Shown in pieces: positions 17,398 through 47,116 of a DNA stretch of 64,000 bases. Source of the DNA: Streptomyces cadmiisoli (GTDB taxonomy: Bacteria > Actinomycetota > Actinomycetes > Streptomycetales > Streptomycetaceae); assembly GCF_003261055.1 (NCBI RefSeq), contig NZ_CP030073.1, positions 7,006,001-7,070,000 of the forward strand. Reading direction: 5' to 3'. The notes under the pieces were generated by a model. That model worked only from the letters and a program-made list of their open reading frames with translations. It searched no databases and was not told the DNA's origin. The position numbers were made by a program, and so were the translations under genes. Position 1 is the stretch's first letter; each line of letters starts with the position of its first letter.

Positions 17398-18048
17398 ATG
17401 AAGATCCGCGCTGAAGCCCTCCTGTTCGACAACGACGGCACCCTCGTCTCCTCGCTCGACTCCGTGAACCGGTGCTGGACCCGGTGGGCCGGCGAGTACG
17501 GCCTCACGGCGGACGACTTCGCGCGGATCCGGCTGCACGGTCGCACGGCCGCCGAGATAGCCGCCGACCTGCTGCCCGCCGACATCGTGCCGCAGGCCGT
17601 GGCGCGGATCGAGCTGCTGGAGGTGGAGGACGTCGCCGACGGCGGCGTGCGCCTGCTGCCCGGCACCCGGGCGTTCCTCGACTCGCTGCCCGCCGACCGC
17701 TGGGCCGTGGTCACCTCCGCCACCCGGCGGCTGGCCGAGGCCCGCCTCGACGCGGTCGGCATCCTCCCCAAGACACTGATCGCCGCGGACGACGTCACCC
17801 GCGGCAAGCCCGACCCCGAGCCCTATCTGCTCGCGGCGCGCGCACTGGGCGTCGACCCGGCCCGCTGCGTGGTCTTCGAGGACGCGCCCGCGGGTCTGGA
17901 GGCGGGCCGGGCCGCCGGTATGACCACCGTGGCGTTGGCCACAACCCACCGGGCCTCCGAGCTCGACGCCGACCTGGTGGTGCCGGACCTGTCCGCCCTG
18001 TCCGCGCTGGTCACCGGCGGGGAAGTGGAGATCACCGGCCGCGGCTGA
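17398..18048 (+). CDS. HAD-superfamily phosphatase (beta-phosphoglucomutase/sugar-phosphatase-like)
   Basis: A 216-residue HAD hydrolase. LLFDNDGTLVSS is the catalytic DxDGT motif with the nucleophile Asp, VVTSATRRL the second motif, and GKPDPEPYLLAARALGVDP with VVFEDAPAGLEAGRAAG the third and fourth. The helical cap after motif I marks the phosphatase/phosphomutase subgroup acting on sugar phosphates or similar small molecules. The ATG at 17398 follows GAGGA. An inverted repeat six bases after the stop probably ends its transcript before the methionine transport operon. Confidence 0.85.
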   Translation: MKIRAEALLFDNDGTLVSSLDSVNRCWTRWAGEYGLTADDFARIRLHGRTAAEIAADLLPADIVPQAVARIELLEVEDVADGGVRLLPGTRAFLDSLPADRWAVVTSATRRLAEARLDAVGILPKTLIAADDVTRGKPDPEPYLLAARALGVDPARCVVFEDAPAGLEAGRAAGMTTVALATTHRASELDADLVVPDLSALSALVTGGEVEITGRG

Positions 18049-18053
18049 CGAGT

Positions 18054-18099
18054 GGTCACCGCTGTCCACGAACCGTCCACTATCCGGACAGCGGTGACC
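18054..18099. terminator. 14-bp perfect inverted repeat after the HAD gene
   Basis: GGTCACCGCTGTCC (18054-18067) and GGACAGCGGTGACC (18086-18099) are exact complements with an 18-base loop. It begins six bases after the HAD stop, so it is a likely terminator, though no T-run follows. Its right arm ends about 20 bases before the likely -10 of the next transcript, so it could also bind a regulator there. Confidence 0.6.
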
Positions 18100-18131
18100 G
18101 GTCAGGACCATAGGTCTGCTTTACTGATCGC

Positions 18132-18218
18132 ATGACCACGACGAGCAGCCGCATTCTTGCGACCGAGGCGACGATGACGCCCGGTGCTCGCTGTATGTGT
18201 CGAATGTGCGCCTGCTAG
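18132..18218 (+). CDS. 28-residue leader peptide with C-terminal Cys/Met cluster, upstream of metN
   Basis: A short frame, ATG 18132 to TAG 18216, encodes a 28-residue peptide that ends CMCRMCAC: four Cys and two Met in its last eight codons. TTTACT at 18120-18125 ends six bases before the ATG, so the transcript is probably leaderless and the peptide is its first product. It lies 206 bases before the start of a methionine-importer operon. Poly-Cys leaderless uORFs that act as cysteine-responsive attenuators are known in mycobacteria. By analogy, ribosomes stalling on Cys (or Met) codons could raise metNIQ expression. No textbook terminator was seen between the leader and metN, only short hairpins such as CGTACGtgtcCGTACG near 18282. 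Confidence 0.7.
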   Translation: MTTTSSRILATEATMTPGARCMCRMCAC

Positions 18219-18424
18219 AGGGCCCCCGCACCACACAGAGCCTCGCGCCCCGAAGCGAGACCGCTCACGTCTGCCCGTACGTGTCCGTACGCGACTGAGC
18301 CCGCCCCCGCGCACACCTCTCCCCGGTTCCTTCGCCACAGCGAGAGCCGTGCCGCGTTCCCGACCGAATGCACCCGTGCCCGGCGCCCTGCTGCGCCCTG
18401 CACTCGACAGTGACGGAATCCCCA

Positions 18425-19468
18425 GTGATCACGACATCGGGCCTGACGAAAATCTACCGGGCCAACCGTTCGCGCGGCCGTGAGGTCACCGCCCTGGACG
18501 GCGTCGACCTGCACGTCCGCGAAGGCGAGGTGTACGGCGTCATCGGCCAGTCCGGCGCCGGCAAGTCGTCGCTCATCCGCTGCGTCAACCTCCTGGAGCG
18601 CCCCACCTCCGGCACGGTCACCGTCGCCGGCCAGGACCTCACCGCACTGGCCGGCCGCGGCCCGCGCGCCGGCCGGGAGCTGCGCCGGGCGCGCAGCCGC
18701 ATCGGGATGGTCTTCCAGCACTTCAACCTGCTGTCGACCCGGACCGTGCAGGAGAACGTCGAGCTGCCGCTGGAGATCCTCGGAAAGTCGGGGAAGGAAC
18801 GTTCCCGCAAGGCGCTCGAACTGCTCGACCTGGTCGGTCTCGCCGACAAGGCGAAGTCCTACCCCGCCCAGCTGTCCGGCGGCCAGAAGCAGCGCGTCGG
18901 CATCGCCCGCGCCCTGGCCGGCGACCCGAAGGTGCTGCTGTCCGACGAGGCCACCAGCGCCCTCGACCCGGAGACCACCCGCTCCATCCTCCAGCTGCTG
19001 CGCGACCTGAACCGGCAACTGGGACTGACCGTCCTGCTCATCACCCACGAGATGGACGTCGTCAAAAGCATCTGCGACTCGGCCGCCCTGATGGACCGGG
19101 GCCGCATCGTCGAGTCCGGCACGGTCAGCGAACTCCTCGCCACCCCGGGCTCGCAGCTGGCCTCCGCGCTGTTCCCGGTGGGCGGCCGGGCCTCGGCCGA
19201 CGACCGCACCGTCCTCGACGTCACCTTCCACGGCGAGGCCGCCACCCAGCCCGTCATCTCCCAGCTGTCCCGTACCTACAACATCGACATATCGATCCTG
19301 GGCGCGGCCATCGACACCGTCGGCGGCCTCCAGGTCGGCCGGATGCGCATCGAACTGCCCGGCCGCTACGAGGACAACGTCGTGCCGATCGGCTTCCTGC
19401 GCGAACAGGGCCTCCAGATCGACGTCCTGGGCACCGAGCCCGCACTGGTCAAGGAAGGTGCCAAGTGA
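18425..19468 (+). CDS. metN: Methionine ABC importer, ATP-binding protein
   Basis: A 347-residue ATPase with Walker A GQSGAGKSSLIR, the Q-loop in GMVFQHFNLL, the signature QLSGGQKQRVGIA and Walker B VLLSDEATSALDP. A C-terminal NIL-type domain (residues ~265-340), typical of MetN, binds methionine and inhibits transport when it is plentiful. The GTG at 18425 with GGAA before it is preferred. GTG 18410 and ATG 18368 are in-frame alternatives; the longest would add an odd Cys-rich start (HPCPAPCCALH). It overlaps metI by four bases. Confidence 0.93.
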   Translation: MITTSGLTKIYRANRSRGREVTALDGVDLHVREGEVYGVIGQSGAGKSSLIRCVNLLERPTSGTVTVAGQDLTALAGRGPRAGRELRRARSRIGMVFQHFNLLSTRTVQENVELPLEILGKSGKERSRKALELLDLVGLADKAKSYPAQLSGGQKQRVGIARALAGDPKVLLSDEATSALDPETTRSILQLLRDLNRQLGLTVLLITHEMDVVKSICDSAALMDRGRIVESGTVSELLATPGSQLASALFPVGGRASADDRTVLDVTFHGEAATQPVISQLSRTYNIDISILGAAIDTVGGLQVGRMRIELPGRYEDNVVPIGFLREQGLQIDVLGTEPALVKEGAK

Positions 19469-20202
19469 CCTGGTCCGAGATGCAGCCCCTGCTCGAGCAG
19501 GCCTGTACCGAAACGCTGATCATGGTCGGCTGGTCCACCCTGATCGCCGTCGTCCTCGGTCTGCCGATCGGCGTCCTGCTGGTCCTCACCGACAAGGGCG
19601 GCCTGCTGCAGAACAGCGCGGTGAACAAGGTCACCGGGCAGATCGTGAACATCGGCCGCTCGATGCCGTTCATCATCCTGATGGTCGCGCTGATGAGCTT
19701 CACGCGCTGGGTCACCGGCACCACCATCGGCAGCGCGGCCGCGATCGTGCCGCTCGCCATCGGCGGCATCCCGTTCTTCGCCCGCCTGGTCGAGACGGCC
19801 GTCCGCGAGGTGGACCACGGTCTCGTGGAGGCCGTCCAGTCGATGGGCGGCAACACCTGGACCATCGTGCGCAAGGTGCTGGTGCCGGAGGCGCTGCCCT
19901 CCCTGATCGCCAGCACCACCACCACCGTCATCGCCCTCATCGGCTACTCCGCGATGGCGGGCACCGTCGGCGGCGGCGGTCTCGGCGACCTCGCCGTCCG
20001 GTACGGCTACCAGCGCTTCGAGACCGGGCTGATGTGGATCACCGTGGGGATCCTCGCCGTGGTGATCTCCCTGATCCAGTTCGCCGGCGACTACTCGGCC
20101 CGCTCCCTGCACCGCCGCGGCGCCCGCTCCGGCCCCGGCCCCAGGCTCCGCCTGCTCAAGGCCGCGAAGCCCGCGACCGCGGACGTCGACAAGGTCGCCT
20201 GA
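19465..20202 (+). CDS. metI: Methionine ABC importer, permease
   Basis: A 245-residue permease with about five to six helices and the binding-protein-dependent transport signature around EAVQSMGGNTWTIVRKVLVPEALPSL, the loop that docks on MetN. The family hallmark region is GYSAMAGTVGGGGLGDLAVRYGY. The GTG overlaps the metN stop (GTGA), so translation is coupled. It forms the methionine channel together with MetN and lipoprotein MetQ. Confidence 0.93.
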   Translation: MTWSEMQPLLEQACTETLIMVGWSTLIAVVLGLPIGVLLVLTDKGGLLQNSAVNKVTGQIVNIGRSMPFIILMVALMSFTRWVTGTTIGSAAAIVPLAIGGIPFFARLVETAVREVDHGLVEAVQSMGGNTWTIVRKVLVPEALPSLIASTTTTVIALIGYSAMAGTVGGGGLGDLAVRYGYQRFETGLMWITVGILAVVISLIQFAGDYSARSLHRRGARSGPGPRLRLLKAAKPATADVDKVA

Positions 20203-20267: not shown

Positions 20268-21095
20268 GTGCGTAACACCGCCAAGTTCACCGCCGCCGCC
20301 CTCGCCGTCGGAGCCCTGACCCTCGGGCTCACCGCCTGCGGCTCCTCCGACAGCGGCTCCGACTCCGCCGACGGCCCGCTGATCGTCGCCGCGAGCCCGA
20401 CCCCGCACGCCGAGATCCTCACCTTCGTCAAGGACAACCTGGCGAAGGACGCGGGCCTCGACCTGGAGGTCAAGGAGTTCACCGACTACGTCACGCCGAA
20501 CACGGCGACGGAGGACGGATCGGTCGGCGCCAACTACTTCCAGAACCAGCCGTACCTCGACGACTTCAACAAGAAGAACGGCACCCACATCGTGCCCGTC
20601 GTCACGGTCCACCTGGAGCCGCTCGGCCTCTACTCCCACAAGTTCAAGAGCGCCGACGACCTCAAGAGCGGTGCCACCATCGCCGTCCCGAACGACACGG
20701 TCAACGAGGCGCGGGCGCTGAAGCTGCTCGCCGACAACGGCCTGATCACCCTCAAGGACGGCGTGGGCAACGAAGCGACCCCCGCGGACATCACCGAGAA
20801 CCCGAAGAACTTCAAGTTCAAGGAGCTGGAGGCGGCCCAGACGCCGCGCTCCCTGGACGACGTGGACGCCGCGGTCGTCAACGGCAACTACGCCATCGAG
20901 GCCGACCTCGAGCCCGCCTCCGACGCACTCGTCCTGGAGTCCGCCGATGACAACCCCTACGGCAACTTCCTCGCCGTCAAGGAGGGCAACGAGGACGACC
21001 CGCGCGTCGAGAAGCTCGCCGAACTCCTGACCTCTCCCGAGGTCAAGAAGTTCATCGAGGACGAGTACGACGGCTCCGTCATCCCCTCCTTCTGA
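20268..21095 (+). CDS. metQ: Methionine-binding lipoprotein, first copy
   Basis: A 275-residue NlpA/MetQ-type lipoprotein. The signal peptide ends in a lipobox (LTACGSS), so Cys is lipidated and the protein is anchored outside. The family core is present: EVKEFTDYVTPNTA, NYFQNQPYLDDFN and the C-terminal NGNYAIEADLEP. The GTG at 20268 follows AAGGAAAGG. It captures methionine and hands it to MetI. A close paralogue follows nine bases later. Confidence 0.92.
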   Translation: MRNTAKFTAAALAVGALTLGLTACGSSDSGSDSADGPLIVAASPTPHAEILTFVKDNLAKDAGLDLEVKEFTDYVTPNTATEDGSVGANYFQNQPYLDDFNKKNGTHIVPVVTVHLEPLGLYSHKFKSADDLKSGATIAVPNDTVNEARALKLLADNGLITLKDGVGNEATPADITENPKNFKFKELEAAQTPRSLDDVDAAVVNGNYAIEADLEPASDALVLESADDNPYGNFLAVKEGNEDDPRVEKLAELLTSPEVKKFIEDEYDGSVIPSF

Positions 21096-21104
21096 GGACC
21101 CGGG

Positions 21105-21935
21105 ATGCGAAAGAACCTCGTTTCCTCCGCGGCCGCCGCACTCGCCCTCGGCCTGGCACTGACCGCCTGCGGTTCGGGTTCCGACTCCGGTGCGGGCGGC
21201 GGTGACGACACCCTGGTCGTCGGCGCCACGCCCGTACCGGCCGGCGAGGTCCTGGCCTACGTCAAGGACAACCTGGCCGCCGACGCGGGCCTGACCCTGG
21301 AGATCAAGGAGTTCACGGACTACGTCCTGCCGAACACCGCGCTCCAGGAGGGCTCGCTCGACGCGAACCTCTACCAGAACGAGCCCTACCTCGACGACTT
21401 CAACGAGGCCAAGGGCACCGACCTGGTCCCCGTCGTCAAGGCCTATCTGCCGCCCATGGGCGTCTACTCGAAGCGGGTCGCCGACGTCGCCGACCTCGCC
21501 GACGGCGCCACCGTCGCCGTGCCCAACGACACCACCAACGAGGGCCGCGCCCTCAAGCTCCTCGCCGCCGAGGGCATCATCACGCTCAAGGACGGCGCGG
21601 GCGCGGACGCCTCACCGGCGGACGTCGCCGAGAACCCGAGGAACCTCAGGTTCAAGGAGCTGGAACCCGCCCAGCTCCCGCGCTCGCTCGACGACGTGGA
21701 CGCCGCCGTCATCAACAACAACTTCGCCCAGGACGCGGGCCTGAACCCGGCGAAGGACGCCGTCCTCCTCGAGTCGGCCGAGAACAACCCGTACGCCAAC
21801 CTCCTGGCCGTCAAACGCGGCAACGAGGACGACCCGCGGGTCGAGAAGCTCGCCGACCTGCTCACCTCCGCGGATGTGCGCAAGTTCATCGAGGACAAGT
21901 ACCAGGGTTCGGTCCTGCCGGTCACCGCCGGCTGA
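21105..21935 (+). CDS. metQ: Methionine-binding lipoprotein, second copy
   Basis: A 276-residue paralogue of the preceding gene, colinear along its length. It has a lipobox (LTACGSG), EIKEFTDYVLPNTA, NLYQNEPYLDDFN and INNNFAQDAGLNP. It starts nine bases after the first copy. The differences are spread out rather than clustered, so the duplication is not recent. The copies may differ in affinity or ligand (for example D- against L-methionine); this is an inference. A long inverted repeat follows the stop. Confidence 0.9.
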   Translation: MRKNLVSSAAAALALGLALTACGSGSDSGAGGGDDTLVVGATPVPAGEVLAYVKDNLAADAGLTLEIKEFTDYVLPNTALQEGSLDANLYQNEPYLDDFNEAKGTDLVPVVKAYLPPMGVYSKRVADVADLADGATVAVPNDTTNEGRALKLLAAEGIITLKDGAGADASPADVAENPRNLRFKELEPAQLPRSLDDVDAAVINNNFAQDAGLNPAKDAVLLESAENNPYANLLAVKRGNEDDPRVEKLADLLTSADVRKFIEDKYQGSVLPVTAG

Positions 21936-34474: not shown

Positions 34475-34546
34475 TGGACGATACTGGGATTGAACCAGTG
34501 ACCTCTTCCGTGTCAGGGAAGCGCTCTCCCGCTGAGCTAATCGTCC
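34475..34546 (-). tRNA. tRNA-Val (GAC)
   Basis: A 72-base cloverleaf on the minus strand: acceptor GGACGAT/ATCGTCC, D-arm TAGCTCAGCGGGAGAGC, anticodon arm CTTCC-CTGACAC-GGAAG with anticodon GAC, and T-arm CTGGTTCAATCCCAG. The 3' CCA is not encoded. Confidence 0.95.
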
Positions 34547-34589
34547 TCGGGACCACGACCACTCCATGGAGCGGATCATGGGCACTGCG

Positions 34590-34661
34590 TGCGCGATACT
34601 GGGATTGAACCAGTGACCTCTTCCGTGTCAGGGAAGCGCTCTCCCGCTGAGCTAATCGCGC
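34590..34661 (-). tRNA. tRNA-Val (GAC), second copy
   Basis: Identical in its body to the neighbouring tRNA-Val genes, with anticodon GAC. The acceptor stem differs (GCGCGAT/ATCGCGC), with both sides changed so that pairing is kept. Confidence 0.95.
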
Positions 34662-34696
34662 GGAGATCCTTGCGGATCGAGGTCCTTGCGGACCAG

Positions 34697-34768
34697 TGGA
34701 CGATACTGGGATTGAACCAGTGACCTCTTCCGTGTCAGGGAAGCGCTCTCCCGCTGAGCTAATCGTCC
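34697..34768 (-). tRNA. tRNA-Val (GAC), third copy
   Basis: The same sequence as the copy at 34475-34546, including the GGACGAT/ATCGTCC acceptor stem. It is the most upstream of the three on the minus strand. Confidence 0.95.
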
Positions 34769-34772
34769 TTGG

Positions 34773-34843
34773 AGGTGGAGACGGGATTTGAACCCGTGTA
34801 GACGGCTTTGCAGGCCGTTGCCTCGCCTCTCGGCCACTCCACC
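34773..34843 (-). tRNA. tRNA-Cys (GCA)
   Basis: A 71-base cloverleaf: acceptor GGTGGAG/CTCCACC, anticodon arm ACGGC-CTGCAAA-GCCGT with anticodon GCA, and T-arm ACGGGTTCAAATCCCGT. The 3' CCA is encoded (34770-34772), unlike in the valine genes. Confidence 0.95.
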
Positions 34844-34882
34844 AGGAGTGTAGGGGACCACGAGGATCCCCGTATTCCTTCG

Positions 34883-34955
34883 AGCGGACGACGAGGCTCG
34901 AACTCGCGACCTCAACCTTGGCAAGGTTGCGCTCTACCAACTGAGCTACGTCCGC
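34883..34955 (-). tRNA. tRNA-Gly (GCC)
   Basis: A 73-base cloverleaf: acceptor GCGGACG/CGTCCGC, anticodon arm CAACC-TTGCCAA-GGTTG with anticodon GCC, and T-arm GCGAGTTCGAGCCTCGT. It is the first gene of the five-tRNA minus-strand cluster. Confidence 0.95.
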
Positions 34956-42076: not shown

Positions 42077-42148
42077 GGGCGATTAGCTCAGTGGGAGAGC
42101 GCTTCGTTCACACCGAAGAGGTCACTGGTTCGAACCCAGTATCGCCCA
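42077..42148 (+). tRNA. tRNA-Val (CAC)
   Basis: A 72-base cloverleaf: acceptor GGGCGAT/ATCGCCC, anticodon arm CTTCG-TTCACAC-CGAAG with anticodon CAC, and T-arm CTGGTTCGAACCCAG. No encoded CCA. A strong hairpin follows. Confidence 0.95.
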
Positions 42149-47044: not shown

Positions 47045-47116
47045 GGGCGATTAGCTCAGTGGGAGAGCGCTTCGTTCACACCGAAGAGGTCACTGGTTCG
47101 AACCCAGTATCGCCCA
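47045..47116 (+). tRNA. tRNA-Val (CAC), second copy
   Basis: Identical over all 72 bases to the tRNA-Val(CAC) at 42077-42148. It is about 5 kb downstream on the same strand and is followed by a T-rich terminator. Confidence 0.95.

Follow-up and report, generated by a model that had tools for sequence, protein, structure and literature searches.

The leader peptide considered here is already known from its counterpart in Streptomyces lividans TK24, which was published in 2021. In the accessible part of that genome reannotation (PMC8079986) the gene, metL (SLIV_29928, MSTTSDRTPATEATTTPGARCMCRRMCAF*), is placed before metNIQ and described as leaderless and of unclear termination, and the authors read it as a methionine-dependent attenuator. 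Judged by titles and abstract openings, there was no later study of this leader among the papers listed by literature searches. The leaderless polycysteine ORFs of mycobacteria (Canestrari et al. 2020) are also short frames with Cys codons in front of sulfur genes, and papers citing that work report cysteine-dependent attenuation for them. The Cys-codon leaders of PMC1262725, found before cys and cbs operons of Mycobacterium, Propionibacterium and Bifidobacterium, have their Cys codons beside the stop and no conserved terminator. Rho was suggested there by polypyrimidine motifs, and the same paper, in the part available, reports no conserved RNA structures ahead of the methionine operons of Actinobacteria.

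The window, i.e. the whole stretch of 64,000 nt of Streptomyces cadmiisoli DNA that was analysed, contains an orthologue of metL in front of a methionine importer operon (Table 1). The sequence-only reading had described a 28-codon frame ending in CMCRMCAC, six of its last eight codons being Cys or Met, with a stop 206 nt ahead of metN; translation of the frame, in which these codons are four Cys and two Met, and the distance to the metN GTG at 18425 both bear this out. The leader frame is not a chance ORF, as it alone among 287 window ORFs of 10-60 aa has at least four Cys in its last eight codons, and no ORF of this kind was obtained in 60 first-order Markov resamples of the window. No NCBIfam model matched the leader peptide. 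A SAM or other known riboswitch was rejected after an Rfam scan of the window at the gathering score, which left the leader without a match and returned tRNAs only. The window holds seven tRNA genes (34475-34955, 42077-42148 and 47045-47116), five of which are clustered on the minus strand.

Table 1. Positions of the leader, its neighbouring elements and the importer genes in the window
Feature	Position	Strand	Details
NdgR-like 15-bp palindrome, predicted site	18075..18089	.	GTCC-N7-GGAC; upstream of the leader promoter
-10-like hexamer of predicted leaderless promoter	18120..18125	+	TTTACT; ends 6 nt before ATG
Leader ORF (orthologue of S. lividans metL)	18132..18218, stop included	+	MTTTSSRILATEATMTPGARCMCRMCAC; start ATG 18132, stop TAG 18216-18218, 28 codons (ORF list and translation)
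Candidate leader-internal RNA hairpin	18142..18190	+	weak to moderate support
Stems of the leader-internal hairpin	18142-18146/18186-18190; 18162-18165/18182-18185; 18167-18170/18178-18181	+	
Terminal Cys/Met codon cluster	18192..18215	+	TGT ATG TGT CGA ATG TGC GCC TGC
C-rich, G-poor gap, Rho-loading-like	18219..18424	+	C 45.6%, G 26.2%
Post-stop hairpin, accessory	18242..18259	+	CTCGC-GCCCCGAA-GCGAG
Conserved block ahead of metN start	18402..18417	+	ACTCGACAGTGACGGA
metN, methionine ABC importer ATPase	18425..19468	+	NCBIfam ABC_MetN best hit 383.4 bits, cut-off 499.7
metI, permease	19465..20202	+	NCBIfam MetI 211.7 bits, just under cut-off 212
metQ-like lipoprotein 1	20268..21095	+	NCBIfam MetQ best hit 193.6 bits, cut-off 374
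metQ-like lipoprotein 2	21105..21935	+	NCBIfam MetQ/NlpA best hit 199.4 bits, cut-off 228.85

With metL of S. lividans, as far as it is described in PMC8079986, the window leader has in common the operon, the CMC(R)RMC end and the lack of a clear terminator, and probably the leaderless start. What is added here is the conservation across the family as comparative evidence, the C-richness of the gap, the palindrome upstream, and a reading in which cysteine is favoured over methionine. The mycobacterial type, according to what is available of its description, has contiguous Cys codons and precedes cysteine-biosynthesis genes; in the window leader the Cys codons are interleaved with Arg and Met (C-M-C-R-M-C-A-C, without adjacent Cys codons), the CGA-ATG within them is near-invariant, and the target is a methionine importer. 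Adjacent CC or CCC are present in leaders of some other genera. The position of Cys beside the stop without a conserved terminator is also that of the leaders in PMC1262725, which differ, in the part of the paper available, by preceding cys and cbs operons.

We favour the view, with a probability of roughly one half, that the leader is a leaderless attenuator of metNIQ which is read by the ribosome, senses charged tRNA-Cys (perhaps together with tRNA-Met) and acts through a Rho-type read-out. In the sequences compared the ORF, its frame and its stop-proximal Cys and Met codons are conserved; the sensing of Cys and Met and the Rho-type read-out are what we infer from them.

For the comparison, genome contigs were scanned with MetI, and 80 Streptomyces loci were taken, which are the best 80 of 420 encoding a relative; the leader was found in 79 of these best-scoring 80, and the remaining one (L051) is cut by its contig. 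Together with the window, 30 loci fetched by a hairpin pattern, 6 loci of the same genus and 60 from other genomes of the family, this gave 177 regions, of which 165 pass the leader pattern and 9 more carry a leader whose hexamer or context deviates. Of the remaining three regions, L051 and L198 are cut and L207 is without the 5' half of the leader. Of the 175 upstream regions from Streptomyces and other Streptomycetaceae genera that are not cut, 174 thus have an intact leader, and these leaders, 26-50 aa long, comprise 151 distinct sequences. MetI is present in 129 of 150 family genomes, of which a part was inspected. What L207 retains ahead of metN is the 3' half (TATGTGTCGAATGTGTGCCTGA), owing either to a real loss or to an assembly join.

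An in-frame Arg-Met pair is present in all 174 leaders, encoded by CGA-ATG in 170 and by CGC-ATG in 4, and CGA-ATG (18201-18206 in the window) is the most conserved piece of the terminal cluster. Between this pair and the stop there are three codons in 154 leaders, two in 19 and four in one. Cys follows the pair in 151 of the 174 leaders (RMC) and Arg in 23 (RMR). Within the last 14 codons every leader has at least one Cys codon, 169 have at least two, and up to six occur. Cys codons recur in inserted segments, and changes of leader length preserve the frame. In three Streptomyces leaders (L022, L026 and L058) TAG is changed to CAG, but a TGA is found one codon earlier; in another (L077) a TGA lies ahead of the retained TAG. 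The rare codon TGT makes up 60% of the leader Cys codons as compared to 11% in 548 roughly called genes, where CGA makes up 2.9% of the Arg codons. A translated leader before a methionine importer, as it had been proposed, is strongly supported by the in-frame length changes, the moved stop, the fixed Arg-Met pair and the stop-proximal Cys codons. The alignment across Streptomyces shows the short frame and its terminal Cys codons to be conserved, and the lack of conservation which the sequence-only reading had named as the outcome that would count against it did not occur.

In Streptomycetaceae the main signal is more likely to be cysteine, since the Cys codons are the repeated and more numerous ones. 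A counterpoint is that the most conserved codons are CGA-ATG and not Cys codons, and that Arg takes the place after Met in the 23 leaders mentioned above. Given this conserved pair, and more Met than Cys in two leaders of another family, both sulfur amino acids may be sensed, as the sequence-only reading had suggested. A leader that senses methionine, with the ribosome counting Met codons, is the published reading of the S. lividans authors (PMC8079986, in its accessible part). It would agree with the annotation of the operon as a methionine importer, with the Arg-Met pair in 174 of 174 leaders, with the presence of two or more Met among the last 14 codons of 160 leaders, and with two leaders of another family (L150 and L151, see below) whose last 24 codons include 6 Met and 3 Cys. 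Nevertheless we regard it as rather unlikely: a single Met is left in the last 14 codons of 14 of the 174 leaders, residue 22 is Met in 64 of 80 Streptomyces leaders but Leu in 11 and Thr in 5, and the Cys codons outnumber the Met codons in the Streptomycetaceae cluster.

Heterozygosity in codons 2-21 of the Streptomyces leaders is 0.070, 0.098 and 0.067 at codon positions 1, 2 and 3, respectively. Third positions vary no more than the others, which argues for a constraint at the RNA level at least as strong as that on the peptide; judged by these alignments, the codon-position pattern is unlike that of a protein under simple purifying selection and points to selection on the RNA too. Such frozen synonymous sites would be expected if the ORF were mainly an RNA or DNA element, i.e. 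a structured 5' element or a protein site in which the frame is incidental, an explanation which we consider improbable. The hairpins near the leader have a bearing on it. The post-stop hairpin is present in the window and in all 79 uncut loci of the best 80 from Streptomyces. It was found in 137 of 165 regions, a figure biased in both directions, as the hairpin itself served to fetch 30 of the loci, whereas another 40 were chosen because a genome pattern search had not detected it in them. In detail, 128 of the 137 are identical, three have one extra loop base, two have U-G, two have the compensatory pair CCCGC/GCGGG and two a broken pair. The compensatory changes are those of L169 (Streptomyces) and L205 (another genus), and they probably arose separately, as the genera are different. 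The hairpin pattern with at most one mismatch is found in 79 of 150 Streptomycetaceae genomes and 11 of 17 genera, where not every match represents this element since that in G046 lies on another contig than its metI; the hairpin-fetched loci have leader and metN in 30 of 30 cases. The pattern used did not detect the hairpin in 28 of the 165 regions, and the existence of leaders without it makes the hairpin an accessory one.

The candidate hairpin within the leader has 75.9% of its cells paired as compared to 33-54% when it is slid along the alignment, and its covariation is 0.130 as compared to 0.069 in shuffles, with one slid version (+3) at 0.108. Its both-side pair changes were reached in 37 of 500 shuffles and its pair types in 122 of 500, which is not exceptional, and RNAalifold gave no consensus structure of the leader for 48 of 55 representatives (seven excluded by hand). 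This covariation, together with a post-stop hairpin that is near-invariant where present and has compensatory stems in two genera, is what an RNA element would predict. The length changes that keep the frame, the moved stop, the Cys codons in inserted segments, the leaders without the post-stop hairpin and the absence of an Rfam match for the leader all argue against an incidental frame.

The gap between leader and metN has more C than G in 165 of 165 regions (mean C 45.6%, G 28.5%). Its mean C-G is 0.171 (sd 0.031) as compared to 0.004 (sd 0.113) in 123 control regions, which are other upstream regions of the same loci based on rough gene calls, and a C-G of at least 0.17 is reached by 84 of the 165 gaps as compared to 6 of the 123 controls. 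The gaps are related but all distinct, and fall into 71 groups with few common 8-mers. An additional set was formed from other metN genes (of other families, or paralogues), a subset of the class-wide matches, for which 33 upstream regions could be used; the mean C-G of these regions is 0.052, and 2 of the 33 reach 0.17. RNA on which Rho loads is rich in C and poor in G. By its composition the gap looks like a Rho-loading region, at which Rho may act. The sequence-only reading had seen no classical terminator in the gap, and this is confirmed for the window, where a search of 17900-18600 gave 0 terminator-like sites. A classical attenuator with an intrinsic terminator was rejected, as this search gave no hairpin with a U-run between leader and metN.

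According to our preferred reading, a ribosome supplied with charged Cys-tRNA (and perhaps Met-tRNA) would reach the stop and leave, whereupon the C-rich gap would be exposed, Rho would load and transcription would usually end before metN. Under cysteine shortage the ribosome would halt at the UGU and UGC codons near the end of the leader, shield the start of the gap and change the folding around the stop, so that more transcripts would reach metN.

The read-out could also be translational. Within the ACTCGACAGTGACGGA block, UCGACA (18404-18409) is complementary to UGUCGA of the leader (18198-18203), and pairing of the two would hide the metN start until a halted ribosome sets it free. Exactly these positions are paired in the MFE fold obtained for the leader of the window, and translation attenuation is the stated mode for mycobacterial Cys genes in the accessible part of PMC13236596. 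In 28 of 71 non-redundant gaps, as compared to 15.6 expected for a uniform distribution, the stretch that best complements the leader motif falls within the 45 nt directly ahead of metN. The mean leader-start contact is 4.1 as compared to 2.2 after shuffling of the start region, in 42 representatives picked by hand from the 165. However, only 22 of these 42 beat their own shuffled control, the pairing is mostly absent in genera with the longest gaps, and many of the positive cases have one conserved block in common and hence are not independent. We therefore judge this alternative to be of low probability, and as a universal read-out the pairing was set aside, the results being mixed. With regard to the start itself, GTGATCAC or a near form is found at GTG 18425 in the genera compared, so that on alignment GTG 18425 is a better metN start than the in-frame ATG 18368 or GTG 18410, the latter being rejected as it is missing in several genera.

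The window leader is likely to be leaderless, because of the spacing of the TTTACT hexamer and because the S. lividans orthologue has been reported as leaderless from RNA-seq (PMC8079986). Among the 174 leaders, the window included, the hexamer is TTTACT in 156, TTTAAT in 7 and another near form in 11, and the distance from its end to the ATG is 6 or 7 nt in 169 leaders and 8 nt in the other 5. Further upstream, 142 of the 174 regions contain GTCC-N7-GGAC; relative to the leader ATG it lies at -57/-58 or -66 to -68 in 141 of them and at -46 in one. The palindrome of the window agrees at 14 of 15 positions with the motif from NdgR ChIP-seq printed in PMC4340878, a paper whose main text does not contain the word metN; the bare pattern has 7 occurrences across the 64-kb window. 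As a sequence match, the palindrome suggests promoter control in common with cysteine and branched-chain genes. It is surrounded by a 14-bp inverted repeat (GGTCACCGCTGTCC/GGACAGCGGTGACC, 18054-18099), which may act as an extended operator or else terminate the upstream gene, whose end is at 18048.

In S. coelicolor under oxidative stress the mRNAs of metN, metI and metQ rise 5.24-, 3.51- and 2.26-fold, cysteine-biosynthesis genes are induced alongside, and the authors assign this induction to the redox two-component system HbpS-SenS-SenR (PMC4991794, in the part available). Such an induction is consistent with cysteine depletion and a cysteine-linked response at the mRNA level, but it may be driven by the promoter instead. 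The SenR site predicted before SCO1559 in the same source is downstream of the leader start and outside the five upstream regions that were gel-shifted there, and for these reasons it was not used as evidence. The gap block CCGTGCCGCGTTCCCG at 18347-18363 is similar to that site.

All four genes of the operon have methionine importer families as their best hits, with every score under the curated cut-off. The metQ-like lipoprotein genes follow metI in tandem (20268-21935), and their substrates may differ (methionine, cystine or other). The leader probably lets the cell raise methionine uptake when sulfur amino acids are scarce. If it is the attenuator that we favour, it would explain how methionine import is tied to the cysteine supply in streptomycetes, which matters for thiol homeostasis. 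Rho-type attenuation in high-GC Gram-positives could be tested on it, and the 174 natural variants (151 distinct) would make it possible to tell apart what Cys, Met and the rare Arg codon each contribute.

Outside the family, 30 of the 33 other metN upstream regions are without a clear leader, and an Rfam scan of 20 of the 33 gave no match. L150 and L151, which are genomes from a single genus in another family of the class, have a clear Cys/Met-rich leader (...MCRGTRMCGTARMCAMGGMPSMR* or a near form) 175-180 nt ahead of metN, with 9 Cys and Met among its last 24 residues where the control 95th percentile is 4. They are passed over by a stricter filter, which requires two or more Cys among the final 12 residues, and picked up by a wider scan. 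L152 of the same family has a weaker Cys/Met-rich frame (5 Cys and Met), and L158, L159 and L163, which are borderline cases, reach 4 as compared to 3 in the control. As L150 and L151 have more Met than Cys, the attenuator reading centred on cysteine was weighted down and methionine sensing weighted up. The leader-like frames of L150, L151 and L152 lie about 175-300 nt before metN.

A more speculative possibility, to which we would give little weight at present, is that the leader does not simply count codons but works as a module that stalls the ribosome close to the stop. Its pattern would be C-(R)-R(CGA)-M-C-x-x-stop in Streptomycetaceae, and it would have Cys/Met-repeat relatives (MCRGTRMCGTARMCAMGGMPSMR) ahead of metN in one or more other actinobacterial families. 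A very rare Arg codon, Met and Cys at a near-fixed distance from the stop would set a pause that reads the cysteine status, and via it thiol oxidation, and opens the methionine importer. If true, this would amount to a hierarchical cysteine control of methionine uptake.

RRHVDL is a leader motif of Streptomyces. A search for it in the genome of the window gave 13 places, one of which (L252) is leader-like and unlike the metN leader. The peptide at this place, around position 1500 of L252, is a different one (...MSGTGIALVSRRHVDLGRMSSAICPAS*), of a type which we take to be that annotated as a putative leader peptide in Streptomyces.
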